A DNA stretch of 29,743 nt from the IMG/VR virus record IMGVR_UViG_3300027849_000043, positions 1 to 29,743 of that record, one strand, 5' to 3'. The position numbers and the translations under genes are program-made. Origin of the DNA: a virus. Within the stretch, counting starts at the first letter, position 1, and each line of letters opens with the position of its first letter. Shown here one piece after another: positions 3,267 to 22,402 of the stretch. The notes under the pieces are model-generated. The model searched no databases. It had not been told where the DNA came from and saw nothing but the letters and a program-made list of their open reading frames with translations.

Positions 3267-4574
3267 ATGAAGTTTTTAGAGATATCGAAACCGCTCGTAA
3301 CATCGATTCTAAGTGAAAGTATTTTACGAGAATCTAAAGACGGTAAGAACACTCACTTAGAACACTTAGAGGATAATATCTTTAACAAAGGATATACCGG
3401 CGCCAGAGAAGCAGTAGACTATCTATACAGTTTACATGATATGCTTGATGGTAACAGTAAAGCACCAATAAGTATGACAACTAAATGGGACGGCGCTCCG
3501 GCTATTGTAGCAGGAATAGATCCAGCTTCAGGCAAGTTCTTTGTGGGTACCAAAGGTGTATTTGCAAATAAGCCAAAACTAAACTTCACTGATAAAGACA
3601 TTGATACCTACCACGCTGACCCATCTCCAGAGAAGGATGCGAGTGGGTTAAGAACAAAAATGAAACTAGCACTTAAACACCTTAGCCGTTTGAACTGGAA
3701 TACAGTTGCTCAAGGTGACATGTTATTTGCTGGACAAGAAGATATTAGCACAGTTTCACTAGATGGCGAAGAACATATTGTATTCAAACCAAACACAATA
3801 GCGTATGCTGTTCCAAAGAACAGTGACCTTGCAAAGCAAATTTTAAGTGCAGGCTTTGGCATTGTGTGGCATACAGAATATGTTGGCGGCCCAACATTAG
3901 CAGATACGCAAGCCAAGTTTGGCTTCGATGCTAGTGTACTAGGCGACGGAGCACCAGCTGGAGTATGGCACAGAGATGCATTAATTAAAGATCTCAGCGG
4001 CACAGTTACAATGACTAAGCAACAGAGTACTGATATTATGGGTGCTATATCCGATGCAAACAGTTACTTAGGAAGCATCGATGCAGAAACATTTAGTTGG
4101 TTAGAAAAAGGTACAGACTTAATTGGTAAGAACTTTTTACAGCAATTAAAAGCACATGCAAACAATCAAGTCAGGCAAGGATCATTTGACGAGCCTACTA
4201 AATTTGCACAAGGTTTTGTACAAAAGTATATTGACTTTATGACTAAAGAAATAGCAAAAGTTAAAACTCAGAAAACTATAGATTCAAAAACAGAATTAAT
4301 GATACAAGGTGTTAAGTTTATTAAAGAACATGTGCCTGGTATCGTAGCAGTATACGACTTATACTTAAAGCTCATTGAAGCAAAAGTAAAAATAATTAAG
4401 AAGTTAGAAGAGATCAAGCAAATAGGGACCTTTGTACAAACAGAGAAAGGTTACGAAGTAACAGGAGAAGAGGGATTTGTTGCTGTAGACAGAATAGGCA
4501 ATGCTCTTAAACTAGTAGACCGATTAGAGTTTAGCAGATTAAACTTCGGGTCCGGTAAACCGGGTGGCAAGTAG
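3267..4574 (+). CDS. KxDG-containing protein, possible nucleotidyltransferase/ligase fold
   Basis: This 435-residue protein begins MKFLEISKPLVTSILSE and has L-x-E sites at residues 15-17 and 20-22. Residues 69-80 read SMTTKWDGAPAI. K73-W-D-G76 fits motif I (KxDG) of ATP-dependent DNA/RNA ligases and capping enzymes, where Lys takes up AMP or GMP. GTKGVFA follows at 94-100, QGDMLFAG at 149-156 may correspond to motif III, and IVFKPNTIAY at 171-180 to motif IV. I cannot identify a clear motif V. The C-terminal half (320-435) is Lys-rich and helical. Homologues in marine T4-like phages are generally uncharacterised. SD-like AGGGA lies 9 bases before the ATG. Its coding end overlaps the GTG start of the next gene by 11 bases. 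The nucleotidyltransferase assignment is tentative; it could be a catalytically dead relative or a chance motif. Confidence 0.6.
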   Translation: MKFLEISKPLVTSILSESILRESKDGKNTHLEHLEDNIFNKGYTGAREAVDYLYSLHDMLDGNSKAPISMTTKWDGAPAIVAGIDPASGKFFVGTKGVFANKPKLNFTDKDIDTYHADPSPEKDASGLRTKMKLALKHLSRLNWNTVAQGDMLFAGQEDISTVSLDGEEHIVFKPNTIAYAVPKNSDLAKQILSAGFGIVWHTEYVGGPTLADTQAKFGFDASVLGDGAPAGVWHRDALIKDLSGTVTMTKQQSTDIMGAISDANSYLGSIDAETFSWLEKGTDLIGKNFLQQLKAHANNQVRQGSFDEPTKFAQGFVQKYIDFMTKEIAKVKTQKTIDSKTELMIQGVKFIKEHVPGIVAVYDLYLKLIEAKVKIIKKLEEIKQIGTFVQTEKGYEVTGEEGFVAVDRIGNALKLVDRLEFSRLNFGSGKPGGK

Positions 4575-6890: not shown

Positions 6891-7259
6891 ATGGCACAAA
6901 CTCAAAACGCAGGAGCGGCAGTAACCGCAGGTCACTACAGTGGTCTACCTTTAGCAGGTATCCAAATTGATTTCGGCGCAGACGTTTCAGCTAAATTAGC
7001 TGTCGACGGCGTTGTAGACGTATTATTAAAAGCATTCGGCATCGAAGGCTTAACACCAGTAGCAGTTGGCACAGTCGACGCAACAGGTGGAGCAGGACAA
7101 GGACTTAGAGTTCTATTTGAAGGTACGCATGGTACTGACACATATGATGGAACTAATTCTGAGACTTTAGCGGCTCACTTAGAAGACGTTACGATTTCTT
7201 TAGGAACAGTTGACGGTGTTAACTTAGCATTAGCTACAGTTGCCGCTTTCGAACTATAA
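6891..7259 (+). CDS. Small beta-rich protein, probable virion component (first of three)
   Basis: The 122-residue product begins MAQTQNAGAAVTAGHYSG and is rich in Gly, Ala, Val and Thr, with short alternating hydrophobic strands. No Cys, signal peptide or membrane segment is visible. It has its own late-promoter-like box, a strong SD (AGGAGA) and a rho-independent terminator 25 bases after its stop. This is the layout of an abundant structural protein such as a head decoration or fibre-tip protein. The next gene shares the MAQT start and a similar size and composition, so the two may be diverged duplicates. The exact virion role is unknown. Confidence 0.75.
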   Translation: MAQTQNAGAAVTAGHYSGLPLAGIQIDFGADVSAKLAVDGVVDVLLKAFGIEGLTPVAVGTVDATGGAGQGLRVLFEGTHGTDTYDGTNSETLAAHLEDVTISLGTVDGVNLALATVAAFEL

Positions 7260-7280
7260 GATATCACTATAACTACAATT

Positions 7281-7310
7281 AAAAAGCACACTTCATGTGT
7301 GCTTTTTTTT
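7281..7310 (+). terminator. Rho-independent terminator
   Basis: Arms AGCACAC (7285-7291) and GTGTGCT (7297-7303) flank a 5-base loop TTCAT and are followed by a T run to 7310. AAAA at 7281-7284 can pair with the first T residues, so it might act in both directions. It follows the 6891 gene. Its core GCACAC/GTGTGC is shared with the terminator at 7739-7762. Confidence 0.92.
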
Positions 7311-7320
7311 GACTGAAATA

Positions 7321-7329
7321 GATAAATAA
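7321..7329 (+). promoter_or_regulatory. Late-promoter-like box GATAAATAA
   Basis: It lies directly after the terminator and 51 bases before the ATG at 7381. The terminator-promoter pair isolates the next gene as its own transcription unit. Confidence 0.65.
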
Positions 7330-7380
7330 ACGTAACAACAGTATGTCGATAGATATACTACCAAGTTTAGGAGAAATAAC

Positions 7381-7710
7381 ATGGCACAGACAAGAGTAAA
7401 CGGTGGAGTGGTAGAAGGACAACTATTAGTAGGTTCTTTAAGTCATTTCGTCATTGACGAAGTAGACGGAGTAGATGACATTAGTTCATTTGGTCACACA
7501 GCAGGCGTACCAAACAAAGGTGAAGCATTAGTAACAGCTTTAGCAACAATTTGTACACCAGTAATTATTACCTCAGTATCAGCAACAGTAATGCACGTTG
7601 CAGTAGAAGGTTCACCAACAGCGGCTAGAGTATTAGAAGCTATTCAACCTTCATTAACAGGTTCAGGCGCTAACGCAACTGCAACAGCAGGTGAATATAG
7701 AGTTGCTTAA
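7381..7710 (+). CDS. Small beta-rich protein, probable virion component (second of three)
   Basis: This is a 109-residue protein beginning MAQTRVNGGVVEGQLLVG, followed by short hydrophobic strands and a Gly/Ala/Thr-rich end (GSGANATATAGEYRVA). It has no Cys or membrane segment. SD AGGAGA lies at 7369-7374 and a late-promoter-like box at 7321-7329. A terminator follows 28 bases after the stop. Shared start residues, size and composition with the 6891 gene suggest duplication, although overall identity is low by eye. Strong expression signals favour a structural role. No function can be named. Confidence 0.75.
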   Translation: MAQTRVNGGVVEGQLLVGSLSHFVIDEVDGVDDISSFGHTAGVPNKGEALVTALATICTPVIITSVSATVMHVAVEGSPTAARVLEAIQPSLTGSGANATATAGEYRVA

Positions 7711-7738
7711 TTTTAACTAATTAAACAATTTTTAAAAG

Positions 7739-7762
7739 GCACACTTAGGTGTGCTTTTTTTT
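7739..7762 (+). terminator. Rho-independent terminator
   Basis: GCACAC (7739-7744), loop TTAG, GTGTGC (7749-7754), then eight T residues. The stem core is identical to that of the terminator at 7285-7303, but the loop differs. It ends the unit of the 7381 gene. Confidence 0.92.
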
Positions 7763-7797
7763 GAGTATCGTTCCGAGCTCGTATTTTTGACAATATA

Positions 7798-7806
7798 GAT
7801 AAATAC
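7798..7806 (+). promoter_or_regulatory. Late-promoter-like box GATAAATAC
   Basis: It lies 23 bases before ATG 7830 and after the 7739-7762 terminator. SD GGAGA is at 7819-7823. A TTGACA at 7787-7792 upstream has no -10 at a workable distance, so the late box is the better candidate. Confidence 0.65.
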
Positions 7807-7829
7807 TACAAATAGCACGGAGACACACA

Positions 7830-8234
7830 ATGCCAATGACAAGAACAGGCTCAATGGGAGCAGTAGAAGTACTAACTGGTAACATCGAATTCTTTACTTT
7901 GTTTACAAGTCTAGATATAACCGTAACAGGTGATTTTGCAGATGCTACACAAAAAGATTTTGAAAGTGTAGTACAAGTAATCGGACTTCGGGCAATGCCT
8001 ACAGTGATGAATAATCCTGTATTTTTAAATGGAGTCGGTGCAAACTTATTAGAAAACTACGGCGCACCAAGTATGACGGGGCAGGATACATTTTTTAAAT
8101 TTGCAACTGAACAGCCCGGCGCACACACACCATCAACATTAATAGACGAACTAGACCTTGTGGTACTAAATGCAGGGACTATTAATACTAAAACAGGTAT
8201 TAATATGGAATTTACTAAACAGGATTTATTGTAA
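7830..8234 (+). CDS. Small protein, probable virion component (third of three)
   Basis: The 134-residue product begins MPMTRTGSMGAVEVLTG. Alternating hydrophobic strands (FFTLFTSLDITVTG) suggest a beta-rich fold. No Cys or membrane segment is visible. It has a late-promoter-like box and an SD of its own. Unlike its two neighbours there is no terminator behind it. Its stop is one base from the next ATG, so it probably leads an operon that includes the membrane protein, the basic protein and the giant amidoligase gene. Function is unknown. Confidence 0.72.
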   Translation: MPMTRTGSMGAVEVLTGNIEFFTLFTSLDITVTGDFADATQKDFESVVQVIGLRAMPTVMNNPVFLNGVGANLLENYGAPSMTGQDTFFKFATEQPGAHTPSTLIDELDLVVLNAGTINTKTGINMEFTKQDLL

Positions 8235-8235
8235 A

Positions 8236-8484
8236 ATGGATGAGCGTAATCAACCACAGCCAGTAGAACAAGAAGTGTATGCACAAAAGGGTAACCTTGA
8301 GGCACACATTATTGCGGACATGCTCCGAATAGAGAGCATCACTACAGAATTAAGAGAATTCAAAGACGACACAAAACAAAGACTTAACAAACTAGAGAAT
8401 TGGCTTGTAGCAATAGTCGGTACAAGTTTTACAACACTTATTGCTGTTGTAATCGGTTTAGTTATTAACTTGTTTGGAAAGTAA
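8236..8484 (+). CDS. Small membrane protein, coiled coil plus C-terminal TM (XhlA/holin-like)
   Basis: I place the start at ATG 8236, directly after the previous TAA, giving 82 residues (MDERNQPQPVEQ). A longer frame reaching back to 8170 lies wholly within the preceding gene and has no supporting SD. Residues 20-55 form a charged helix with heptad spacing (IADMLRIESITTELREFK). Residues 56-80 form one hydrophobic segment (WLVAIVGTSFTTLIAVVIGL) that ends in LFGK. A short coiled coil plus one C-terminal membrane helix is the layout of XhlA-type haemolysin/holin accessory proteins, so a role in lysis is possible. T4 holin (gpT) is larger and has an N-terminal anchor, so this is not a T homologue. 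The last base of its TAA is the first base of the next ATG. Confidence 0.7.
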   Translation: MDERNQPQPVEQEVYAQKGNLEAHIIADMLRIESITTELREFKDDTKQRLNKLENWLVAIVGTSFTTLIAVVIGLVINLFGK

Positions 8485-8765
8485 TGAGATTAGCAGAACT
8501 AACAGAAGATACAATCACTGAAGCCAGGATGGTATGGCGTAGAAGTGGTAAGAAGATTAAACGTGCCGTTAGATGTACTAGTGGCAGACGTAAGGGCAGA
8601 GTAGTCAGTAATGTTTCTCAATGTTCAGCGCCAATCAATATGAAGAAGCGTATGACATTGAAAAAGACTAAAGCTCGTATGGGTGCAAGGCTTTCAAGAA
8701 AGTCGCAGAGAACAAAAAGACTTAACCCAGCAAGTCGAAGATTAAAAACATTAAACAGGCGATAA
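8484..8765 (+). CDS. Very basic small protein with capsid-targeting-like leader
   Basis: This is a 93-residue protein starting MRLAELTEDTITEARMVWRR. L6-T7-E8 fits the gp21 (L/I)-x-E rule. Everything after residue 15 is densely Arg/Lys (KKIKRAVRCTSGRRKGRVV, then KKRMTLKKTKARMGARLSRK), giving an extreme positive charge with two Cys (near C31 and C47). Composition is like histone tails or protamines, and T4 internal proteins are also small and basic. Packaging with the DNA, condensing it or protecting it on entry, is a reasonable inference. Similar small Arg-rich proteins occur in marine T4-like phages as conserved hypotheticals. The ATG overlaps the preceding stop. The giant gene follows after 3 bases. 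Confidence 0.75.
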   Translation: MRLAELTEDTITEARMVWRRSGKKIKRAVRCTSGRRKGRVVSNVSQCSAPINMKKRMTLKKTKARMGARLSRKSQRTKRLNPASRRLKTLNRR

Positions 8766-8768
8766 TAC

Positions 8769-11700
8769 ATGAAATTTACAGATGTTAGAACTTTAGAAAG
8801 TGTACTGGTAGAATATGGAATGAATTCAGGTTCAAGTACACCGACTAGTCAACAACAGACAGGGGCAACTGCAAAAGCAAATGCAACAAGCAATGCACCT
8901 AAGCCTAAAGTAGACAAAGGTAGTCCTACTGTAACTCCTGGCCTCGATGTTAAAGACGTAGAGCCTGAGAAAGTTGAACCAACATATACAAAAACTAAAG
9001 CCAAAGATATAGAAGTAGATGCTGAGTATCACGATGATAAAGGCGAAGTAGTAGGCAAAGTAATTAGTAAAGTTGGCAACTCCCCGAATCCAGACAAAGT
9101 TGTAGTACAAGATCCTAAGGGTGAGTATCAACTGGTCGAACCAGATGAAGAAGTACAAGTACTTAATGCTAGTAAACTATCTAAGTTAAGTAAGTCTAAT
9201 TCATCGCATCTTAAACTAAACAAAATAAAAACAGGCATGAAAAAACTTGTGCGTAAATTTAAGTTACGTGAACAAGGTGACGAGCAATTATTTGAAATCA
9301 ATTTTAACAAACCTGACATAGCCAAAGCGGCATTAGATGTAAACATTAAATGTGGGTTTGAAGCAGAAACAGTTTGGAATGACGTTGCTAATAGCTCTGA
9401 TGACGAAGACTGGTTAGATGACGAAAACTGGTACAACATCGAAGACTATGTGTACGAGCAAGAAGGTAGCAGAAGCGTAGAAGCAGTGCAAGAATCGTAT
9501 AGAGAGTGGATGTATGATAAAGCATACGAATACGAAAGCGAGATTATTCAACGTATGGTATCAGACCGTAAAGAAGATGAAGAATATATAGACGCTTTTG
9601 TTGACGATAAATTAGACATGGATGAAGTTGAAGAGTACAAAGAATCATTTTTAGCCAGTGTAGATGCTGATGACAGAGACGAGTTTGCAGATTGGGACCT
9701 TCAAGCATTTGCAAGACAGTATGCAGAAGAAGTAAAAGAAGATGAACTTATAGAATGGCTCGAAGAAAGCATTAGAGACAATGGTGAAGCAATGGAAGAA
9801 GCCGTTGAACAAGCAGAAGAAGAGTATCCTATAGACACATGGGCCAGCGATGAACACGGTAGCTGGCTGAGTGCATTAAGTTCGCTAGACATATATCTGC
9901 ATAACCCAAACAGTGGCGGCGGCGTAGAAGAAGTTGCCGCTGAACTAACACGTTGGACAGACAAGAGCAGTGAATTTAAAGAAGTAGAAGCAGGTGAATA
10001 TCACAGCGGCTACGGAGCAGACCAGACGTACTGGCGTGTAGAAGATGACAGTTCAATTGAATCAGACGGCGGCACTGGTGCAGAGCTTATTAGTCCGGTA
10101 TATGATTCACCTAGAGACATGCTACACGAAATGAAGAGCATGTTTGAGTGGATGTCCGGCGAAGGTGTTGAAACTAATAGAAGTTGTGGACTACATGTAA
10201 CAATGAGTTTAAACAGCGAGACTCCTCAAGAAGTAAACAAAGTAAAACTTGCTGTGTTATTAGGCGACAAGTATTTGTTAAGTACATTTGGCAGATCCAG
10301 TAACAGTTATGCCAAGAGTCAATACGATAATTTAAAGAAAGCCGCAGAGAAATTAAAGTCAAATCCAGAAGATATGAAGTCTATAGAAGGGATTGAGAGA
10401 ATAATCTCTAGCGGTATTAGTACTGGCAAGTTTAGTAGTATTAACTTCAAAACTGACAAAGACGGTACAACCGGTAACAACTTAATTGAATTTAGAATCG
10501 GTGGCGGTGATGATTATCACACTAATTTTGACATAGCCGCTAAAGCAGTTATACGTTATGCGGCTACAATGAGCTCGGCATACAGTGATCAAACACATAA
10601 TACCGATTATGCAAAAGCGTTATTTAAACTGATTAACAGTTTAGACGCAGTTGATCCAAAAGACGAAGAGCGTATCAAAGGCAGATTCGATGTTGAACTT
10701 CCTATAGTAGATACAATTAAACCATTTTTCTCAAAAGGCGGATATATTGATTCAATGGATCATGTTGCTGTAGCAGTTAACAACTTAACTCGTTACAGAA
10801 AGTTAATTAGTCCAGGCGCAGATGAGGCATGGAAAGAAGCAGTTAAGAAATGGGAAACAGAAACAGGTTCGAAGCATGTAGAAGAAGCTACTGACGGTGA
10901 ACCGATTACGGGTTATGCAAAACCTAGAAAATTAGCACCTAGCAAAGAAGCACCTGCATTTTTAAAGAAAGCACAAGAAGCCTTTGTAAATGCAATAGCA
11001 CAAGCTGGGTATGATTTAAGCCAAAATTTAAATAGAGGATCACTGAATGCAAAAGCAATTGGTGTATTCCGAAATACATTAAAAGACTTTGAACTTGATT
11101 ACAACAAACTTGATACTATGGTAAACGCTCAGGCTGACTATGTTACTAAAGACCGTGATATAGAACAACAAGCATTACTCAGTAGAATACAAAACGGTGT
11201 CAATAGATTGTTTAAAAAGGCAATTGTTACATTACCTGCATTCTTAACATCACCACAAGTTGAGAAAATTATAAAAGGGCTATGGCGAGCAAGCAACGGC
11301 GAAGCAACAACATCAGGCGAACAAGGTGACAAGTTCTTTAAAGCTATTGCTAAAGCAACAAATCAAGATGACGAGACAATTGCTTATGCATGGGATCAGC
11401 TTCCTAAACGAGAGTGGAAGGTTTTTTATAGGACGTTGGTTAACGGATCGTATAACTCCGCTGGTATTAACAAAGACGGCAGTTGGTTTAAAGTAGGCAA
11501 TCCTGTTAACGAAAAAGGTGTAGAACAACTAATAAAGCACTTGGACAGTTATGAAGACTATGACCACCCAGTTGCAGTAGGACATAATCCTAACGGCACT
11601 GGCGATGACGACTATACTGATAACGCATTAAGCAAGATGATAATTAAACTAAGAGCACGGTTTGATGAACTAACACGAATAAAAGAAACAAACCCTGCAA

Positions 11701-14525
11701 TGTACTACGACTCAGCCGCTGAAGTCAGTGAGTTAATAAAGGCAATGACTCCCAAGCTGACTACTAATCCAAACCACCCAATGACGGACTTTGATCCTGC
11801 ACTAAACGATATAGACCCTCATAGAGACTCAGATGACGGATTGGACTATTTTGGTATGACATATTCAACAACAGAAGAACTTATGAAAGTTGTTGCACTT
11901 ATTGACAACCAAGAAGCACCTGACCCATTTAGTAGTGAACCTATGTCTCGTGTCAGAGATCTAATGCAACAATATATAAGAGATGTATTTGACAGGCACT
12001 TTAGAGCTAAGAACCGATACGGCGCCGATGTGTTCGATGCAGGTAAGTTACCTGTATTGTTGAAGGCACGAACAGATGCAATATCTAACTTTATAAACGG
12101 TGTAGATAAAATATCACAGAAACTAGGATTTGATTCTGCTAACATTGATGTAGACAAGAAAACACAATTAATGCAGAAGCAAAAGAAGTTTATGGATAAG
12201 CATGGAGAGCAACGACTTGCAAAATTAAATGCTTGGTCGTATGGCGGAGAGGTATATTATGCAAAGAGTACAGTAGGATCCGCAAACAAATTAGCAAACA
12301 TGACAGACGAGGAAATTTCAAATGCGTTTGATATGAATGCGTCCATGCATAAGTCTAAGTACCGCGATGTGTTAGTAATGCCACATGCCCACAAATTTAC
12401 AGCCTTGCAGGCTCAGGAAATCTATGACAATGTTCAACGTTACGGCAGTAACTGGAGATACGATATATCAATAAGGATACTTGCAAAGTTCAAGATGGTG
12501 TACGAGATAGAATTTAAAGATTTAAACAGTAGATATGTTTCTTGGAAACAAGACCTTGCCTTAATAAAGTTGACAAAACAAAAGAGAGTTGCAATAACAG
12601 ATGAACTGGGTGACGGCAGAATAGGCGGAAAGCCATATGACTTCGCACCACTAATTCCACAACAGTATTTACAAGGCCCACACGGAGAACCGTTTGATTT
12701 AGGTTCAGCGGCGGCATGGGCCTCACAGAACCCAGAACTGTCTAAAAAAATAAAAGCAGAAGAGACCCCAATGAATAAAGAAAGTGCATTTGATAAATTT
12801 GATAAGTTGCCGTTGGAAGAGCAGATAAACATTATTAGTAAAATTAGCAAAGAAAAAATTGATAAAATTTACGAAGCATCAAAGGATATTCCTAGTGGAC
12901 AACACCTATGGAACGTGGCATATAAAGATGGTAGTAATAAAGAAGTAATGGCGTCAAGTCCATATGCTGTTTATCTACAATTAGCACCTGGGGTGCGCCA
13001 TCCGGAGAAGCAAAAGAAAGCATTGGGAATCAAAAGTATAAAAAAAGTGAGACAGCCTAATCGAAAGCCTAAAGGCTCGTTTGGATTTAGCAATAAAGGT
13101 TTTACTAAAGATCGAAGAGAACTTAAAAAAGCTAAAGATACAGAGTTTAAGAAAGACCCGGATTCATATGTACATGATAGAAATAGAGTTGGAGTTGAGG
13201 AAAATGTACCAGACTTTAAGCAAGTAGATACAATAAATGATTTACTAGCAGACCATTTTCCTGTAGGCGACCTTAAAAAGCAAATGTTGGCTTACCAAGC
13301 AATACCTGTTCCTGCAATGCTAGACAATTTTAGAAGGTTGCGAGCAGAGGCCGGCGACGATGCATGTGCGAGAAATATACTACAGATGTTTGTAGGTGTA
13401 TTACCAGATGCAACGAAAGCACAGATTAATTTATCTGAATGGAGCAAACAGCACGTTACTAAACTAATTAACGAGTATACTGACTTAGGTGTTGAAAAAG
13501 ATACTATTATTAAAACTATTAGCGGACTAGATGCCAGCAATGAGCAACATGCTAATATACTAGATAGAATTTACAAATTACTTAACAGTGACCATATTGG
13601 TAAAACGTTAGACAAAGCATTTAGTTTTCCATTAATGGACGAGCCACTATCAGATAAGCAAAAATTAAAAGTTATACAAGATGTAACAAGGATAATCGGC
13701 GGACTAGACAGTGACTATGGCACAATGAGCGGCTTCATAGCACGTTTAGAGAAACAAGGCACTGTAGTAAACATTAAAGAGTTAAACAAACCTATTAACA
13801 GTTTCCAAGCAGTGTTCGGAGATGATATATCTATATCAGCCTTTAGGGCATTAACATCATATGGTGTTGGTGTTAACCAAAAAGGTCCAGGTGAATATGG
13901 CTTGGCATGTTTAAGTAATCAGATTAGCCTTGCAGTAGGTGAAGGTGACTTGGAGATCAAGGGCATAGGCAAAGTAGAACTTAAAGCGGCTACTAGTAGC
14001 ACAGGCGGAAGAATTGGTTACGGCGGCGGAAGTCAAAAGGCTAAGAGAGCAGTTATCGACAAGTACGCAGAATACATTCCAACTATTATGTCATCCATTG
14101 GCGGACAAGGTGGAAGTTTAGGTTGGACTAAATTTATAAACGGTTTGAACGTAGACTTACCAGCAACTGATGTAAATAATCAGAAAGTAAGAAAAGCAAT
14201 AGCACAGGAACTATTCACAATGGATATGGAAGGCTATGCTGGCCCATTATGTGATGCTATAGCAACGCAGACGGATATAACCCAACTTGAAAATGTTTAC
14301 TTAACACAAAACTTCTTATGGTATAAGAACAGAGATGATTTTGACGGGCTATTGCTAATAAGTATACCTAATATGAAAACTGCAATGATTAAGAATGAAA
14401 AAGATTTGATTGCATTTAGACGTAGCGGACATTCAATGTCAACGTCAATTAGTGTTATACCAACACAAGCAGGCGCTGGTAGAGAGCAATGGGCTCAGTT
14501 AAGTCTTAACAAAGGTGTACTATAG
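8769..14525 (+). CDS. Giant protein with amidoligase domain and PD-(D/E)XK-like C-terminal motif
   Basis: The product is 1918 residues. It starts MKFTDVRTLESVLVEYG, with L13-V14-E15 as a possible prohead-protease site. Residues 20-170 are a disordered linker. Residues 192-600 match the putative amidoligase family (COOH-NH2 ligase superfamily): CGFEAET (195-201), an acidic insert 205-360, YWRVEDDSSIE (421-431), GAELISPV (437-444), SCGLHV (472-477) and LIEFRIGGG (572-580). Such enzymes join a carboxyl to an amine using ATP. Middle regions (610-1700) are not recognised. Near the C-terminus D1727, E1737 and K1739 (GDLEI, then VELKAA, then GGRIGYGGG) resemble the PD-(D/E)XK nuclease core. No membrane segment is visible. 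The stop overlaps the GTG of the superoxide dismutase gene by one base, so both are probably made together. The large size and leader suggest a virion-associated protein. Confidence 0.85.
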   Translation: MKFTDVRTLESVLVEYGMNSGSSTPTSQQQTGATAKANATSNAPKPKVDKGSPTVTPGLDVKDVEPEKVEPTYTKTKAKDIEVDAEYHDDKGEVVGKVISKVGNSPNPDKVVVQDPKGEYQLVEPDEEVQVLNASKLSKLSKSNSSHLKLNKIKTGMKKLVRKFKLREQGDEQLFEINFNKPDIAKAALDVNIKCGFEAETVWNDVANSSDDEDWLDDENWYNIEDYVYEQEGSRSVEAVQESYREWMYDKAYEYESEIIQRMVSDRKEDEEYIDAFVDDKLDMDEVEEYKESFLASVDADDRDEFADWDLQAFARQYAEEVKEDELIEWLEESIRDNGEAMEEAVEQAEEEYPIDTWASDEHGSWLSALSSLDIYLHNPNSGGGVEEVAAELTRWTDKSSEFKEVEAGEYHSGYGADQTYWRVEDDSSIESDGGTGAELISPVYDSPRDMLHEMKSMFEWMSGEGVETNRSCGLHVTMSLNSETPQEVNKVKLAVLLGDKYLLSTFGRSSNSYAKSQYDNLKKAAEKLKSNPEDMKSIEGIERIISSGISTGKFSSINFKTDKDGTTGNNLIEFRIGGGDDYHTNFDIAAKAVIRYAATMSSAYSDQTHNTDYAKALFKLINSLDAVDPKDEERIKGRFDVELPIVDTIKPFFSKGGYIDSMDHVAVAVNNLTRYRKLISPGADEAWKEAVKKWETETGSKHVEEATDGEPITGYAKPRKLAPSKEAPAFLKKAQEAFVNAIAQAGYDLSQNLNRGSLNAKAIGVFRNTLKDFELDYNKLDTMVNAQADYVTKDRDIEQQALLSRIQNGVNRLFKKAIVTLPAFLTSPQVEKIIKGLWRASNGEATTSGEQGDKFFKAIAKATNQDDETIAYAWDQLPKREWKVFYRTLVNGSYNSAGINKDGSWFKVGNPVNEKGVEQLIKHLDSYEDYDHPVAVGHNPNGTGDDDYTDNALSKMIIKLRARFDELTRIKETNPAMYYDSAAEVSELIKAMTPKLTTNPNHPMTDFDPALNDIDPHRDSDDGLDYFGMTYSTTEELMKVVALIDNQEAPDPFSSEPMSRVRDLMQQYIRDVFDRHFRAKNRYGADVFDAGKLPVLLKARTDAISNFINGVDKISQKLGFDSANIDVDKKTQLMQKQKKFMDKHGEQRLAKLNAWSYGGEVYYAKSTVGSANKLANMTDEEISNAFDMNASMHKSKYRDVLVMPHAHKFTALQAQEIYDNVQRYGSNWRYDISIRILAKFKMVYEIEFKDLNSRYVSWKQDLALIKLTKQKRVAITDELGDGRIGGKPYDFAPLIPQQYLQGPHGEPFDLGSAAAWASQNPELSKKIKAEETPMNKESAFDKFDKLPLEEQINIISKISKEKIDKIYEASKDIPSGQHLWNVAYKDGSNKEVMASSPYAVYLQLAPGVRHPEKQKKALGIKSIKKVRQPNRKPKGSFGFSNKGFTKDRRELKKAKDTEFKKDPDSYVHDRNRVGVEENVPDFKQVDTINDLLADHFPVGDLKKQMLAYQAIPVPAMLDNFRRLRAEAGDDACARNILQMFVGVLPDATKAQINLSEWSKQHVTKLINEYTDLGVEKDTIIKTISGLDASNEQHANILDRIYKLLNSDHIGKTLDKAFSFPLMDEPLSDKQKLKVIQDVTRIIGGLDSDYGTMSGFIARLEKQGTVVNIKELNKPINSFQAVFGDDISISAFRALTSYGVGVNQKGPGEYGLACLSNQISLAVGEGDLEIKGIGKVELKAATSSTGGRIGYGGGSQKAKRAVIDKYAEYIPTIMSSIGGQGGSLGWTKFINGLNVDLPATDVNNQKVRKAIAQELFTMDMEGYAGPLCDAIATQTDITQLENVYLTQNFLWYKNRDDFDGLLLISIPNMKTAMIKNEKDLIAFRRSGHSMSTSISVIPTQAGAGREQWAQLSLNKGVL

Positions 14526-15490
14526 TGAGAACGACAGACTTTACAAGTTGCCCTAGAACAAAAGCAAAGACGTGCGAGTGTGCTAGTGTTAGTACTATCC
14601 AGGAAGCACAAGAAACAGTTAAAGCAGTAGTGCAACTAGAACATGTTGAAGGCGACATTACTGGTGCAATAGTTATGAAGCAAGAACCTGATAGCCCTAC
14701 TATTATACGAGGTATAATTAAAGGACTTACTCCGGGTAAACATGGATTCCATGTACACGAATTTGGTGACCTAAGCGATGGTTGTGCAAGTGCTGGTGGA
14801 CATTACAATCCAGATAACAGTGAGCATGGCGGATTGTCTGACGGACACATCGGTGATTTAGGAAACATTGTTGCTAACGAGGACGGCATCGCAAAATTTA
14901 AGATTGTTGCTAGGCGTGTGGATTTAACTGGCGAGCGTAGTATTGTTGGCAGAGCAATAGTTATACATGCAGGCGAAGATGACTTAGGCACAGGCGGTGA
15001 CGATGAAAGTCTTAAGACAGGCAATGCTGGCGATAGATTAGCATGTGGTGTTGTACGATTGAGAAAGGGCATAGAAGAAAGTTATGTTAGACCAATACAC
15101 GAAAAGACTTTTGCTAGAAACGAGTTACCGCAAATTAATAGACAGCATATACAAGATTCCGACTTTAACTATAAAGAAGGCGAGATGACCATAGATAAGA
15201 TTAAGCCAGTACAGACTCAACGTGTAGATGGCTTGGCAAAGAAATCTCGAGATGTATTTTTAAACAATGAAGACAAACCGTTCATAGTAGACAAAAAGGG
15301 TTACTTGATTAATGGGCACCATAGATTTGATGCCGCAAATGTATTAGGTATTAAACGTGTAAAAACGATTATGATAGATGCAGACATTGAAGAAGTAATG
15401 CAAGTCTTTTCACATACCAGTAGTGAGCAACAAGTAATGGCAGAGAATTACTTTAAAGATTTACTTAAATCAAAACTCCTCAAAAAATAA
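14525..15490 (+). CDS. sodC: Cu/Zn superoxide dismutase fused to ParB-like domain
   Basis: This 321-residue protein starts at GTG 14525, with AAAGGTG 9-15 bases upstream as SD. Residues 32-180 are a complete Cu/Zn SOD domain: GFHVHEFGD (H76, H78 for Cu), AGGHYNPDNSEHGG (bridging H93, Zn H101), H108 and D111 for Zn, H148 for Cu, disulfide C87/C174 and R171 at the substrate channel. All metal ligands are present, so 2 O2- + 2 H+ to H2O2 + O2 should be catalysed. Residues 195-290 look like the ParB/Srx fold: IKPVQ, then KPFIVDKKGY, then INGHHRFDAANVLG (G264-R267). There is no signal peptide. The N-terminal 27 residues are Cys-containing and end with I25-Q26-E27, a possible prohead-protease site just before the SOD domain. 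It is coupled to the giant amidoligase gene. Cu/Zn SOD is rare in phages. Confidence 0.92.
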   Translation: MRTTDFTSCPRTKAKTCECASVSTIQEAQETVKAVVQLEHVEGDITGAIVMKQEPDSPTIIRGIIKGLTPGKHGFHVHEFGDLSDGCASAGGHYNPDNSEHGGLSDGHIGDLGNIVANEDGIAKFKIVARRVDLTGERSIVGRAIVIHAGEDDLGTGGDDESLKTGNAGDRLACGVVRLRKGIEESYVRPIHEKTFARNELPQINRQHIQDSDFNYKEGEMTIDKIKPVQTQRVDGLAKKSRDVFLNNEDKPFIVDKKGYLINGHHRFDAANVLGIKRVKTIMIDADIEEVMQVFSHTSSEQQVMAENYFKDLLKSKLLKK

Positions 15491-16798: not shown

Positions 16799-16999
16799 AT
16801 GAAGATATCAGACATTGTATTAAACGAATTTGCATCAATGGGTGGCATGAGTGCCGGTGCAGTAGCTACTGTGGTAAAACCGATAGCTAATGATGCACAG
16901 CGTATAGCCCAACGTCCAAAGAAGCCTAAGAAAACTAAGTGGGCTCACAAAAAGCCAGGTCCCAAAGCTAAGAAAGAATCAAGTATCATAAAGAGATAG
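16799..16999 (+). CDS. Very basic small protein with capsid-targeting-like leader
   Basis: This is a 66-residue protein starting MKISDIVLNEFASMGG. L8-N9-E10 fits the gp21 (L/I)-x-E cleavage rule. After an Ala/Gly/Val-rich stretch, residues 39-60 are a run of Lys/Pro (AQRPKKPKKTKWAHKKPG) that resembles a DNA-binding tail or nuclear-signal-like cluster. There is no Cys and no membrane segment. Cleavage would leave a basic peptide of about 56 residues, as in processed T4 internal proteins. One base separates it from the next gene. Confidence 0.65.
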   Translation: MKISDIVLNEFASMGGMSAGAVATVVKPIANDAQRIAQRPKKPKKTKWAHKKPGPKAKKESSIIKR

Positions 17000-17708: not shown

Positions 17709-18986
17709 ATGAAAATTACAAATTTTAACCAAACGCCAAAGAAACGAATTAATCAAATTAATTCTTATCTTAAAGAGGCTCATGGTGTGCAAGTCAAAGG
17801 CTTACACAGCAAGACCAAACTTGAAACTATTAAAGAAAAAGCAGAACAAACTCTTATAAGATTACGAAACACAAATCGTAAGTTTAACTTAGATCCAGAA
17901 TACGCAAAGTTTTTAGGCGTAAGAGATGTTATCGAAGTTATGCTTTCTGAAGGCATGTATGCAGAAAGTCCTGCAATGCAAGAAATGAAATCAGGCATTG
18001 TATCCGAAGTTAAGGCTTTAATGGACGGCGGTTACACAATGGACGAAGCAAGTAAAGAGTGCATGAACAAATTCAGAAAGGACACCCGATATGCCCATGA
18101 TGACGAATTTGTACTGCCAATAGTACTTAAAGCGGCTAAAGACTACATGGAAGCATGTAGCTCAATGAGCGAAGAAGTTAAACAAGAGTTTCCAGAAACA
18201 GATATCAACGAATACTTATTCCAAGAGATGGCAAAAGAAGTTGGAATGGAAATAGACAACGTTGAAGCATTAAAGGCAATTGAAGAAAAACTAGGCATGT
18301 TTGCTGAAGTAAGTGGCAAGAGCAGAGAGTCTGTTGTAGGCTTCTTAAATGGTTTAGAAGAAGATGCAGTTGCAAACGGTATTCAAATGTTTGGTAAGAA
18401 AGTTGCAGAACAAAATAAATTTACAGGTGCTAGAAAAGATGCTATTGCACAAGGTAAAAAGTCTTTTGAAGTAGACGGAACAGAATTTGATATTACTGGC
18501 GATACTAAAGATGAAAAGAGTCAAGCAAAAGAAAGCATGTTCGATGACATCATCGGTGACATGATTTCAGAAGAAGTAGAAGTGGAACAAGCAGAAGTGG
18601 TTATGGCACTTAGAGCCTTAGCAGACGATGTACAAGACCACGTTGAAAGAATTGGCAGAATGATTAACGAAGACCTTCCTGCTATTGTAGATCAAATGAA
18701 AGCAGAGTTTGGCGCAGAACAGGCAGTTCAAATGAAATCTAATATGGAGCAAACGCTTCAATCAGTATTAGATGGAAACAAAGCAGGTAAAGACGGATTG
18801 GACAGCGTTATTGCTGGACTAACTGGACAGGGAACGGGCATGGTGGATGCACCAGCTGAACCTGGACTTGACACTGGACTTGAACAACCTGCATTAGGCG
18901 GCGAAGAAGAGCCTGCATTGGATAACGTACCTGCCGCGGCTGGCCCAGAAGATGAGCCACTAGGTAGAGCATCAGTAGAGATTTAA
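17709..18986 (+). CDS. Probable virion structural protein with acidic Pro/Ala-rich tail
   Basis: This is a 425-residue protein. The first 25 residues are basic (PKKRINQINSYLKEAHG) and contain L21-K22-E23. The body (25-340) is almost all helix with coiled-coil-like stretches and many Met. Residues 345-425 are Gly/Ala/Pro/Glu-rich and disordered, ending EDEPLGRASVEI. A similar acidic tail ending in LGRA-type sequence is, as I recall, found on virion proteins of marine T4-like phages, but I could not check this. A late-promoter-like box lies upstream. The next gene begins one base after its stop. A virion or prohead role fits; a specific T4 counterpart cannot be named. Confidence 0.72.
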   Translation: MKITNFNQTPKKRINQINSYLKEAHGVQVKGLHSKTKLETIKEKAEQTLIRLRNTNRKFNLDPEYAKFLGVRDVIEVMLSEGMYAESPAMQEMKSGIVSEVKALMDGGYTMDEASKECMNKFRKDTRYAHDDEFVLPIVLKAAKDYMEACSSMSEEVKQEFPETDINEYLFQEMAKEVGMEIDNVEALKAIEEKLGMFAEVSGKSRESVVGFLNGLEEDAVANGIQMFGKKVAEQNKFTGARKDAIAQGKKSFEVDGTEFDITGDTKDEKSQAKESMFDDIIGDMISEEVEVEQAEVVMALRALADDVQDHVERIGRMINEDLPAIVDQMKAEFGAEQAVQMKSNMEQTLQSVLDGNKAGKDGLDSVIAGLTGQGTGMVDAPAEPGLDTGLEQPALGGEEEPALDNVPAAAGPEDEPLGRASVEI

Positions 18987-18987
18987 C

Positions 18988-19332
18988 ATGAAGATTAACG
19001 AAGTATTACTCTTCGAACTATACTTCGACGACTTACAACTTGCTATTAAAGACAGAATTGTCCAGCAAGTTGGGTCCGACGTTAGTGAGATACCAACGGA
19101 AGAATTCCGTAAGAGCCTCGCAGACGACGGATTTTTGATGAGCACGGATGAACTCATCAAGGCGCTCAATGACATGGAAGTCATTGATAGTGCGGACGAG
19201 AATAGTATCGTGCCTAAAGGCAAAATTGCCAATGATGTAACTGACCCAGATGCAGAAGATCAAGGCGTTGATGTTGGTGCAATGGCAGATGACCAAGCAT
19301 TAGGTGCCGTAAAAGACAACCTCCCACAATAA
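18988..19332 (+). CDS. Small acidic protein with capsid-targeting-like leader
   Basis: The 114-residue product begins MKINEVLLFELYFDDLQL. L8-F9-E10 fits the (L/I)-x-E rule. The body is helical and acidic and the C-terminal third is disordered (DPDAEDQGVDVGAMADD). There are no Cys or membrane segments. Acidic composition and pairing with the previous gene (one-base gap) suggest a partner of that protein. It could be a core or scaffold component rather than packaged cargo. Function unknown. Confidence 0.68.
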   Translation: MKINEVLLFELYFDDLQLAIKDRIVQQVGSDVSEIPTEEFRKSLADDGFLMSTDELIKALNDMEVIDSADENSIVPKGKIANDVTDPDAEDQGVDVGAMADDQALGAVKDNLPQ

Positions 19333-20702: not shown

Positions 20703-21377
20703 ATGTTAATAGATAAGATTCAATATAAAACTTTAGAACGAATTACTACCAAAGAAGGTAGACGCTATGTGGGAGACGATAATGTCCCTGTACCTAGTGT
20801 GACCACTGTACTTGATAAAACATCTGACAAGACTGCCTTGATTGCATGGCGTAAACGTGTCGGTGATGCTGAAGCAAATAGAGTAAGTACCGAAAGTGCT
20901 GGCTTAGGAACTAAAGTGCATAATGCGTTAGAGAAGTTCATTCTAGAAGAAGACTACGAAATCAAAGGAAATAACTTTGTAAGTATACTTGCAAGGGATA
21001 TGACTAACCTAATGATTAACAAAGGCTTCGGTGATGTTAGCGAAGTATGGGGAACTGAGGTTGGCTTAATTGCTCCTGGGCTCTATGCTGGAACAACTGA
21101 CTGTGTAGGAATACATGGCGGCGAAGAAGCTATTATTGACTTTAAGACTAGTAAGAAAATTAAAAAAGAAGCGTGGGTTCAAGACTACTACTTACAGTGC
21201 TGTGCCTATGCACTAGCACACAATGAGATGTACGACACTAATATTAGAAAGTGTGTTATTCTTATGGTTAGTAGAGATGTTGAATTCAAACAATATACAA
21301 TCGAAGGTGACCAGTTTGACCATTATTGTGGTCTGTGGGCACAACGTTTAGAGCAATATTATCAGTCTATTCTATGA
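20703..21377 (+). CDS. RecB/Cas4-like PD-(D/E)XK exonuclease
   Basis: This is a 224-residue protein. The RecB/Cas4-like nuclease core is visible in order: H73 in GTKVHNAL, E119 in GTEVG, D133 in GTTDCVG, D146-F-K148 in IIDFKTSK and Q165 in LQCCAYA. This is a complete PD-(D/E)XK metal-dependent nuclease. Four Cys (C134, C166, C167 and C189) are present, but there is no obvious iron-sulfur cluster set as in Cas4. A perfect sigma-70 promoter upstream makes it an early gene. Likely roles are degradation of host DNA, recombination or end processing. The stop overlaps the next ATG (ATGA). Confidence 0.88.
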   Translation: MLIDKIQYKTLERITTKEGRRYVGDDNVPVPSVTTVLDKTSDKTALIAWRKRVGDAEANRVSTESAGLGTKVHNALEKFILEEDYEIKGNNFVSILARDMTNLMINKGFGDVSEVWGTEVGLIAPGLYAGTTDCVGIHGGEEAIIDFKTSKKIKKEAWVQDYYLQCCAYALAHNEMYDTNIRKCVILMVSRDVEFKQYTIEGDQFDHYCGLWAQRLEQYYQSIL

Positions 21378-22402
21378 AGCAAGTAGTATTAGTACAACAT
21401 GCTATAGGTGAAGTTGGGCTAGATAATTTTGGTGTTATCGACCTTGTATTACCTGAACTTAAAGACGGTGAATACTTAATAGAAAATATCTATTGCGGTA
21501 CAGATCCTTACATGCGTATTTCGATGAACCCAGGTGAAGTGTTTCCTAACTACCCGATGATAACTCTCAATGAAGGGATACCAGGCGAGTCAGTAGGCAG
21601 AGTTATAGAAAGCAAAAATGCAGACTTCCCAGTTCATACACACTTGTGGCATAAGAAGGGTTGGCGCACACATGCAATAGGTAATGGCGATACCGAACAT
21701 TTTAAGTTAACTCCTGGCACAGATATGGAAAAGTATCTAACGTTTTATAGCCTAGTAGGAAGAACAGCATACTATTCCTTAACTAAGGTATTAAAAGTTA
21801 ATGTTTCGGATACTGTTGGTGTAAGTGGAGCAACAGGTGGTGTTGGTAATATGGTTGTACAATTTGCAAATCTTATGGGCTGTACTGTATACGGACTTAC
21901 TAGCACACAGGAAAAAGCAGACTTAGTAAACGAGTTAGGCGGCACTGGTGTTGTCGTTCCTCGTAAAACACCTTTAATGAAAATGCGAGCTATTATATCA
22001 GGTGCGTGTGAGCCGTTCGATGCTTACCATGAGAATGTCGGCAACGATTATTTCTTTAGTGCTTTGCAGAATATGACTTACAGCGGCACAATGTCCTACT
22101 GTGGCGTAATGTCTTTGTATCAAAATATAGTGCCAAGCGGTGGACCTAACCTTTTTGCCCTAACAACAAAAGATATAACCATTCGTGGTTGCAATATGAC
22201 TAAAGACTTAGTGTATGGTTCCGAAGAATGGAAACAGCAATTTAATTGGACTGATGAATTCCACCAATTTATAAACGACCATATTGACGAGTTACAATGC
22301 GTTAATACTATGTACGAAGGCATCGAATCAATGCCACAACAGTTTGTAGATCATTTTACACCAAAAACTCCTCGTTCTGGTAAATCTTTGTGCAGGATAT
22401 GA
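21374..22402 (+). CDS. MDR-family NAD(P)H-dependent oxidoreductase (zinc-independent)
   Basis: I start at ATG 21374, which overlaps the upstream TGA, giving 342 residues; a longer frame from 21326 lies within the nuclease gene. CGTDPYMRISM (41-51) fits the VDPYMRGRM substrate-side signature of the leukotriene B4 dehydrogenase/curcumin reductase branch of MDR enzymes. SGATGGVGNMVVQFANLMGC (151-170) is the Rossmann nucleotide-binding turn (AxGxxG). GRTAYYSLTKVLKV (129-142) fits the catalytic-domain helix before the cofactor domain. The structural and catalytic zinc cysteines of alcohol dehydrogenases are absent. Enzymes of this branch reduce the C=C bond of alpha,beta-unsaturated carbonyls. It could detoxify reactive aldehydes or alter lipid metabolites in the host. 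It is transcribed from the same sigma-70 promoter as the nuclease. Confidence 0.85.
   Translation: MKQVVLVQHAIGEVGLDNFGVIDLVLPELKDGEYLIENIYCGTDPYMRISMNPGEVFPNYPMITLNEGIPGESVGRVIESKNADFPVHTHLWHKKGWRTHAIGNGDTEHFKLTPGTDMEKYLTFYSLVGRTAYYSLTKVLKVNVSDTVGVSGATGGVGNMVVQFANLMGCTVYGLTSTQEKADLVNELGGTGVVVPRKTPLMKMRAIISGACEPFDAYHENVGNDYFFSALQNMTYSGTMSYCGVMSLYQNIVPSGGPNLFALTTKDITIRGCNMTKDLVYGSEEWKQQFNWTDEFHQFINDHIDELQCVNTMYEGIESMPQQFVDHFTPKTPRSGKSLCRI

Follow-up and report, generated by a model that had tools for sequence, protein, structure and literature searches.

A Cu/Zn superoxide dismutase joined to a ParB/Srx-like domain as predicted head cargo in an uncultivated virus and its phage relatives

The uncultivated virus record IMGVR_UViG_3300027849_000043 was analysed over a stretch of 29.7 kb (positions 1 to 29,743; hereafter the window) and was found to encode, on the plus strand, a Cu/Zn superoxide dismutase (SOD) which is preceded by a cysteine-containing leader and followed by a domain resembling ParB and sulfiredoxin (Srx). 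The open reading frame (ORF) has a GTG start and overlaps by one base with the stop codon of an upstream gene for a protein of 1918 amino acids (aa). The gene and its parts are as follows:

14525..15490, plus strand: coding sequence of 321 aa, comprising leader, Cu/Zn SOD, linker and ParB/Srx-like domain (ORF, Pfam, PHROG)
14525..14605, plus strand: N-terminal leader, residues 1–27, before the SOD fold, with a capsid-targeting-like start (alignment, structure alignments)
14549..14581, plus strand: Cys motif C9-P-R-T12-K-A-K-T-C17-E-C19, its CxC as in the copper chaperone CCS (alignment, DNA-pattern search)
14597..14605, plus strand: predicted prohead-protease site 1, I25-Q26-E27 before A28 ([ILV]xE in 58/58 viral cores)
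14618..15064, plus strand: Cu/Zn SOD domain, residues 32–180, assigned to the eukaryotic (E-class) type (Pfam, alignment, tree, structure)
15071..15079, plus strand: predicted prohead-protease site 2, I183-E184-E185 before S186, in the SOD-ParB linker ([LIV]xE in 25/26 ParB fusions)
15122..15424, plus strand: ParB/Srx-like domain, residues about 200–300 (PHROG, profile and fold matches)
15311..15325, plus strand: NGHHR box of the ParB/Srx-like domain (invariant in 15/15 aligned C-domains)

Pfam Sod_Cu (PF00080) matches residues 46–177 with an E-value of 2.3e-46, and the residues which define a Cu/Zn SOD of this family are all present, namely the copper ligands H76, H78, H93 and H148, the zinc ligands H93, H101, H108 and D111, the disulfide pair C87-C174 and the channel arginine R171. 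This completeness had been claimed in the original prediction made from the sequence, and it was upheld by an alignment of 58 distinct viral SOD cores, drawn from 94 of 96 sources, in which H76, H78, C87, H93, H101, H108, D111, H148, D152 and R171 are invariant (58/58) and C174 is found in 57, the exception (L042) being a truncated row. Two sources (L067 and L079) stand outside the alignment, as their metal-site motif is spelled differently and no frame was obtained; by eye, each of them has an [IL]xE site as well as the Cys leader. The predicted structure of the whole protein has a mean pLDDT of 80.8, and modelled residues 32–180 superpose on a human SOD1 chain with a Z-score of 23.8 and a root mean square deviation of 1.6 Å over 147 residues. 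The predicted fold thus fits solved SODs, with pLDDT below 50 in two loops at residues 102–104 (the zinc loop) and 157–165. All 50 structural neighbours listed are SODs, in a comparison which barely probed the ParB part, and most of the solved ones align with the model from residue 30–32. On these features SOD catalysis by the window protein is nearly certain.

The layout of the copper chaperone CCS (an MxCxxC domain I, an SOD-like domain and a C-terminal CxC) was not found, the Pfam scan returning no heavy-metal domain and the sole CxC of the window protein being N-terminal. In a tree built by maximum likelihood from 28 viral rows together with 77 bacterial and two eukaryotic ones, and containing no classical periplasmic SodC reference, the viral rows form one group (100/99) which joins the two eukaryotic rows and L117, a cyanobacterial row from a metagenome-assembled genome (MAG) (100/88). 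This grouping with eukaryotic rather than bacterial SODs is that of the E-class, in a tree with only two eukaryotic rows.

Neither the Cys leader nor the capsid-targeting-like N-termini surrounding the gene had been mentioned in the original prediction. C9, T12, C17 and C19 of the leader are present in all 58 viral cores, with P10 in 55, R11 in 48 and A14 in 38. Searching IMG/VR with a DNA pattern for the leader gave 104 stretches; 103 of these were read, with one match each, of which 100 run in frame into an SOD, one is cut by the end of its locus and two are due to chance. Among 300 loci, redundant ones included, 198 of 205 leader peptide matches enter a standard SOD motif, the other seven consisting of one cut match, four variant SODs and two chance matches. 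The leader was found on no protein other than an SOD among the IMG/VR pattern matches and the 300 loci, so that it belongs to the SOD. Domain III of CCS has such a CxC as its copper/disulfide motif (PMC6383938).

The gp21 protease of phage T4 cleaves after L/I-x-E, and T4 internal proteins bear N-terminal targeting propeptides of 10–19 residues (PMC9026906). At site 1 of the phage SODs the [ILV]xE falls in a single alignment column in 56 of the 58 cores and is shifted by one residue in the other two (L013 and L017). The predicted cut product would begin at A28, three residues ahead of the equivalent of human SOD1 residue 1 in several structures. Fusion classes were counted on 56 of the cores, leaving aside L042 (truncated) and L078 (variant search word). 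Within 16 residues after the SOD, [LIV]xE is found in 25/26 ParB fusions, 5/7 other C-terminal fusions and 6/23 forms which end with the SOD, compared with 679 of 3,023 background 16-residue windows (22%); in the three fusions without it (L086, L089 and L090) Met-x-E stands in its place. The motif before the SOD in every core and after it in nearly all fusions fits the T4 gp21 rule, and the window protein resembles a T4-type internal head protein, with propeptide and L/I-x-E, at the level of sequence motif alone.

T4-type gp23 and gp21 were both detected on three of 14 longer SOD-bearing contigs, which identifies at least these three, by gene content, as T4-like phages; their gp23 has LQE, LAE or LSE before the conserved body, as read by eye. 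In one relative (G017) a 94-aa gene (L320:5778-6059) situated 3.3 kb from the SOD repeats the gp23 pro/mature junction (score 72; next 23). Together with a neighbour of a structural family in the window (17709-18986) and a separate ParB gene with a targeting-like start in another relative (G023), this copy supports head cargo. From the hydrophobic-x-E motifs bracketing the SOD and the neighbouring genes with capsid-targeting-like N-termini, we infer that the SOD is carried in the head. Packaging in the virus head is likely on this evidence, and we consider it reasonably probable that the window encodes an active E-class Cu/Zn SOD of cytosolic type which serves as a head-cargo module of T4-like phages and is cut from its precursor by the prohead protease.

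The genes of the window which bear on this reading are as follows:

3267..4574, plus strand: DUF6267 protein with a capsid-targeting-like N-terminus (Pfam 3e-97; in L076 the SOD is fused to this domain)
8484..8765, plus strand: 93-aa basic protein with a capsid-targeting-like N-terminus (..TITE before A; sequence pattern)
8769..14525, plus strand: 1918-aa amidoligase-domain protein with a capsid-targeting-like N-terminus (..LVE before Y; Pfam E 8e-5, PHROG 1e-8)
16799..16999, plus strand: 66-aa basic protein which, after an LNE site, is weakly like the processed gp23 N-terminus of related phages
17709..18986, plus strand: 425-aa protein of a PHROG virion structural (head and packaging) family (E 7e-10, residues 288–380)
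18988..19332, plus strand: 114-aa protein with a capsid-targeting-like N-terminus (sequence pattern)

A pattern combining a T4-like targeting N-terminus with [LIV]xE was found in seven of 30 window genes, compared with seven of 283 in the SOD-bearing contig G016, when proteins of at least 60 aa were counted, and in 6/28 versus 5/250 with a floor of 80 aa. For 64 loci on contigs unread before the pattern was composed, it occurs in 37 of 295 genes at most 4 kb from the SOD and in 13 of 271 beyond (p 0.0016), with p-values of 0.002 and 2e-6 when the radius is set at 3 kb and 5 kb. The giant amidoligase-domain neighbour of the original prediction was confirmed weakly, its Pfam match lying just above the cut-off. 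All 14 distinct amidoligase N-termini have a hydrophobic residue two positions before the E, in a search whose pattern itself demanded E-[YF], and a distant amidoligase-domain protein of Atu_ph07 (AUZ94978) is encoded near portal and prohead core genes. The 66-aa protein scores 34 against the gp23 junction of G016, where an unrelated match in the same scan scores 36; its relative in L323 scores 42, with an unrelated match there at 36.

The C-terminal third of the window protein matches PHROG ParB families from E 3e-6 and the ParB nuclease structure 5k5d at E 1e-4; a match to free serine kinase is marginal (E 0.05), and the fold matches are to ParB/sulfiredoxin models. Pfam ParBc_2 remains under its cut-off (E 0.01), and the C-domain modelled on its own gave an unusable pLDDT of 37.9. 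Considering the fold and the G-x-x-R box, the match to the ParB/Srx superfamily is weak but real, and the GHHR domain originally predicted is thus present. The order SOD then NGHHR domain recurs in 26 of the 56 classed relatives, which rules out an assembly error; the fusion is genuine, although in G023 the SOD and the ParB-like protein are separate adjoining genes, each with a targeting-like start.

ParB is one of several partners. Eighteen of the 58 cores consist of SOD alone behind a short leader. Other C-terminal partners are DUF6267 (L076), a GH19/endolysin-like domain (L080; just under the Pfam cut-off, PHROG endolysin 2e-27), a 466-aa part (L093) and short tails, and N-terminal partners include a 5'-nucleotidase (L080) and an HD domain, below the cut-off (L058). 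Two architectures may be recorded here: L080:8269-10266 encodes a 5'-nucleotidase domain, the SOD and the GH19/endolysin-like domain in a single protein, and L086:2968-10179 encodes a protein of 2404 aa with the SOD close to its C-terminus, in which no Pfam or PHROG families beyond those of the SOD region were found at E 0.01. A basic C-terminal tail ending in ..MYHWCANMK.. or MAHWCANMK was also observed in 14 of the 58 distinct SOD proteins (L003:8001-9491, L008, L041, L094 and others), and a similar stretch lies in another reading frame of L320. The linker motif found in 25 of the 26 ParB fusions suggests that the prohead protease separates SOD from ParB. While the fusion itself stands, the working two-domain enzyme of the original prediction is weakened by this motif and by the variety of partners, and the SOD-ParB fusion is probably a precursor rather than a working enzyme.

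Under this reading the chain would run from a short capsid-targeting peptide through the CPRTKxxxCxC leader and the SOD to the ParB/Srx-like domain, and the leader would direct it into the prohead core during head assembly. A gp21-like prohead protease would then cut after IQE27 and IEE185, yielding a mature SOD with an N-terminus close to that of human SOD1 and a freed ParB-like part. The SOD would reside in the head with the DNA, be ejected at infection and remove superoxide early, and the ParB-like part may act separately as an injected nuclease/NTPase, as has been proposed for polyvalent proteins. Cleavage, packaging, ejection and the role in vivo are all stages that we infer.

Several observations weigh against the head-cargo reading. 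L/I-x-E is a short motif, its [LIV]xE form being as frequent in background windows as given above. The targeting pattern was composed after the window had been read, and the SOD itself is one of the seven window matches. The rows being related to one another, neither they nor the motif counts across the cores can be treated as independent. The Cys leader is internal in several relatives, behind another targeting-like N-terminus, so that it is not itself the targeting peptide, and this role was rejected as its sole one. In G016 the SOD adjoins an Fe-S-carrier-like gene (L310:8683-9015, named by eye, directly after the SOD) with no obvious head cluster. Finally, gp21 and gp23 were found in none of the 15 nearest contigs, which are fragments in which the controls were equally silent.

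The SOD could instead be an ordinary auxiliary metabolic gene, whose product detoxifies superoxide in the infected cell and is never packaged, the fusions being incidental. The intact catalytic residues, the frequency of SOD without a partner, the Fe-S-carrier-like neighbour in G016 and the lack of a signal peptide, as judged by eye with no predictor used, are all in keeping with this explanation. However, it leaves unexplained the hydrophobic-x-E on both sides of the SOD, the targeting-like N-termini around it and the gp23-junction copy in G017, and we regard it as rather unlikely. A true two-domain enzyme, in which the SOD and the ParB/Srx-like domain act jointly, for example as a redox-protected nuclease or a redox switch, would agree with the purifying selection on both halves (dN/dS of 0.09–0.11 for SOD and 0.08–0.10 for ParB in three pairwise comparisons) and with their co-occurrence in 26 of 56 rows, but many relatives lack ParB or have other partners, ParB is a separate gene in G023 and the linker has a cleavage-like site, which makes this explanation improbable. 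The idea that the SOD fold is non-catalytic and has only a structural or decoy function in the virion, following poxvirus annotations (the 'inactive Cu-Zn SOD-like virion protein' of a poxvirus is among the BFVD structural neighbours), is very hard to sustain given that ligands and channel Arg are kept in 58/58 cores and that activity is published for RbCuZnSOD, whose described motif is the same (PMC8382915).

With regard to distribution, only eight of 50,697 named phage records match the window protein. Seven of these matches fall on the SOD, with 30.6–34.4% identity and no more than 63% of the query covered, and the eighth falls on the ParB part (a PLxRFG protein of Klebsiella phage vB_KpnP_ZX1). 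A profile scan of IMG/VR gave 285 relatives, of which the best 80 were inspected (all at least 61%). The rarity in phages originally proposed hence holds for named phages and fails for this group. Prophage SodC (Gifsy-2, Fels-1) and bacterial SodC are alike in that Cu/Zn SOD can be phage-borne; they differ by the low identity and partial coverage just given, and some are annotated as precursors.

The leader also connects the family with published enzymes. The Group 2 'proteobacterial' SODs have an N-terminal CxRTxAxxCxC, the eukaryotic cysteine layout and Thr/Val at the position of human Gly150, and one of them is active in both its monomeric and its dimeric form, namely RbCuZnSOD (OUV78940; MAG Rickettsiales bacterium TMED131, NHGG00000000) (PMC8382915). 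The window leader fits this motif letter for letter, and the phage family shares the cysteine layout; the stated 19.7 kDa of RbCuZnSOD would fit the SOD-only form of the family. At the Gly150 position the 58 cores have R in 29, T in 16, V in 10 and E in one, with two unread. The window has Arg there instead of the Thr/Val of Group 2, which counts against the identity of the two and places the window, by its sequence, as a variant of the motif family, short of strict Group 2 membership. Group 2 was assigned there to bacteria (to a MAG in the case of RbCuZnSOD), whereas here the same motif lies on phage contigs, the comparison being one of motif and stated features only.

When 84,980 species of bacteria and archaea were scanned, which gave 111 relatives (top 57%), none of the best 80 loci was seen to have this leader type and five have a CxC upstream of the SOD; this is weak evidence of absence, as just 20 of the 58 viral cores contain any of the six search words of the scan (14 of the 52 that lie outside the group of the window). 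Based on the motif on phage contigs and its absence from these best 80 cellular relatives, it is quite probable that the Group 2 'proteobacterial' CuZnSODs belong to the phage family. SOD gene GC content is reported to track genome GC content across the 34 proteins of that study (PMC8382915), which counts against a phage origin of Group 2. TMED131 is not mentioned in the main text of PMC9531940. A more far-reaching version is offered tentatively, and may well prove wrong: the SOD would carry its own CCS-like copper/disulfide-loading leader (C-x7-C-x-C) in a disposable propeptide, mature in the host cytoplasm without a chaperone, be cut out by prohead-protease cleavage at either end, and be packaged in the head and injected, the Group 2 'bacterial' SODs being these phage genes in metagenome bins.

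Packaged viral SOD has a precedent in chlorovirus PBCV-1, in which A245R is a functional Cu/Zn SOD, expressed as a late gene and packaged in the virion (PMC7019647). Both are virus-encoded Cu/Zn SODs, with packaging only predicted here, but PBCV-1 infects a eukaryotic alga, and neither a Cys leader nor a protease bracket is mentioned in the available portion of that source. T4 IPI-III and Alt resemble the phage SODs in that the IP proteins have N-terminal targeting propeptides cut by gp21 after L/I-x-E (PMC9026906); there is no SOD among them, and the phage SOD cargo appears to be cleaved both before and after the SOD. A further comparison is with the polyvalent proteins that contain DdrB-like ParB: these are phage proteins of several domains, ParB-like DNases among them, and are likely to be packaged (PMC5512222). 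The word 'superoxide' does not occur in the main text of that paper. Among the literature matches listed, the only titles or abstract openings that describe an SOD of this type, whether from a phage, marine or packaged in a head, are those of PMC8382915 and a chlorovirus review; papers on prophage SodC appear as well. What is new here, in our view, is the logic of the cargo, the leader with its cysteines and the reading of the published 'bacterial' group as phage.

A number of further features were observed. At 6891-8234 of the window lie three successive small look-alike proteins (MAQTQNAG.., MAQTRVNG.. and MPMTRTGS..), possibly repeated structural genes, as judged by eye, and the gene at 21326-22402 is for an alcohol dehydrogenase/oxidoreductase of the zinc type (Pfam 9e-22, 1e-17). 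The best named relatives of the DnaB-like helicase of the window are jumbo phages such as PA5oct and Atu_ph07. G016 (IMGVR_UViG_3300022866_000322), a phage contig of 221 kb, has a permuted two-piece tmRNA at L309:2697-3042 with the tag ANENSYFEEFALAA, matching Rfam RF04321 (E 5e-29) and beta_tmRNA (E 6e-43), which hints at a proteobacterial host.

If the head-cargo reading is correct, tailed phages would have an injected antioxidant enzyme, to our knowledge the first to be proposed for them, in parallel with the packaged SOD of an algal virus, and a case would be provided in which a fusion of phage cargo domains serves as a precursor to be cleaved. The leader is also a natural case on which to test whether the copper chaperone can be replaced by a CxC peptide attached to an SOD. 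Published 'bacterial' relatives of SOD1 would shift to viruses, which bears on the route of the enzyme into eukaryotes. Groups 1, 2 and 3a have been offered as possible representatives of the early eukaryotic enzyme, and the same authors also allow that a transfer from a eukaryote may account for where Groups 1 and 2 are placed (PMC8382915). Under the tentative version above, the argument for a bacterial ancestor would lose Group 2, or SOD1-like enzymes may have moved via phages.

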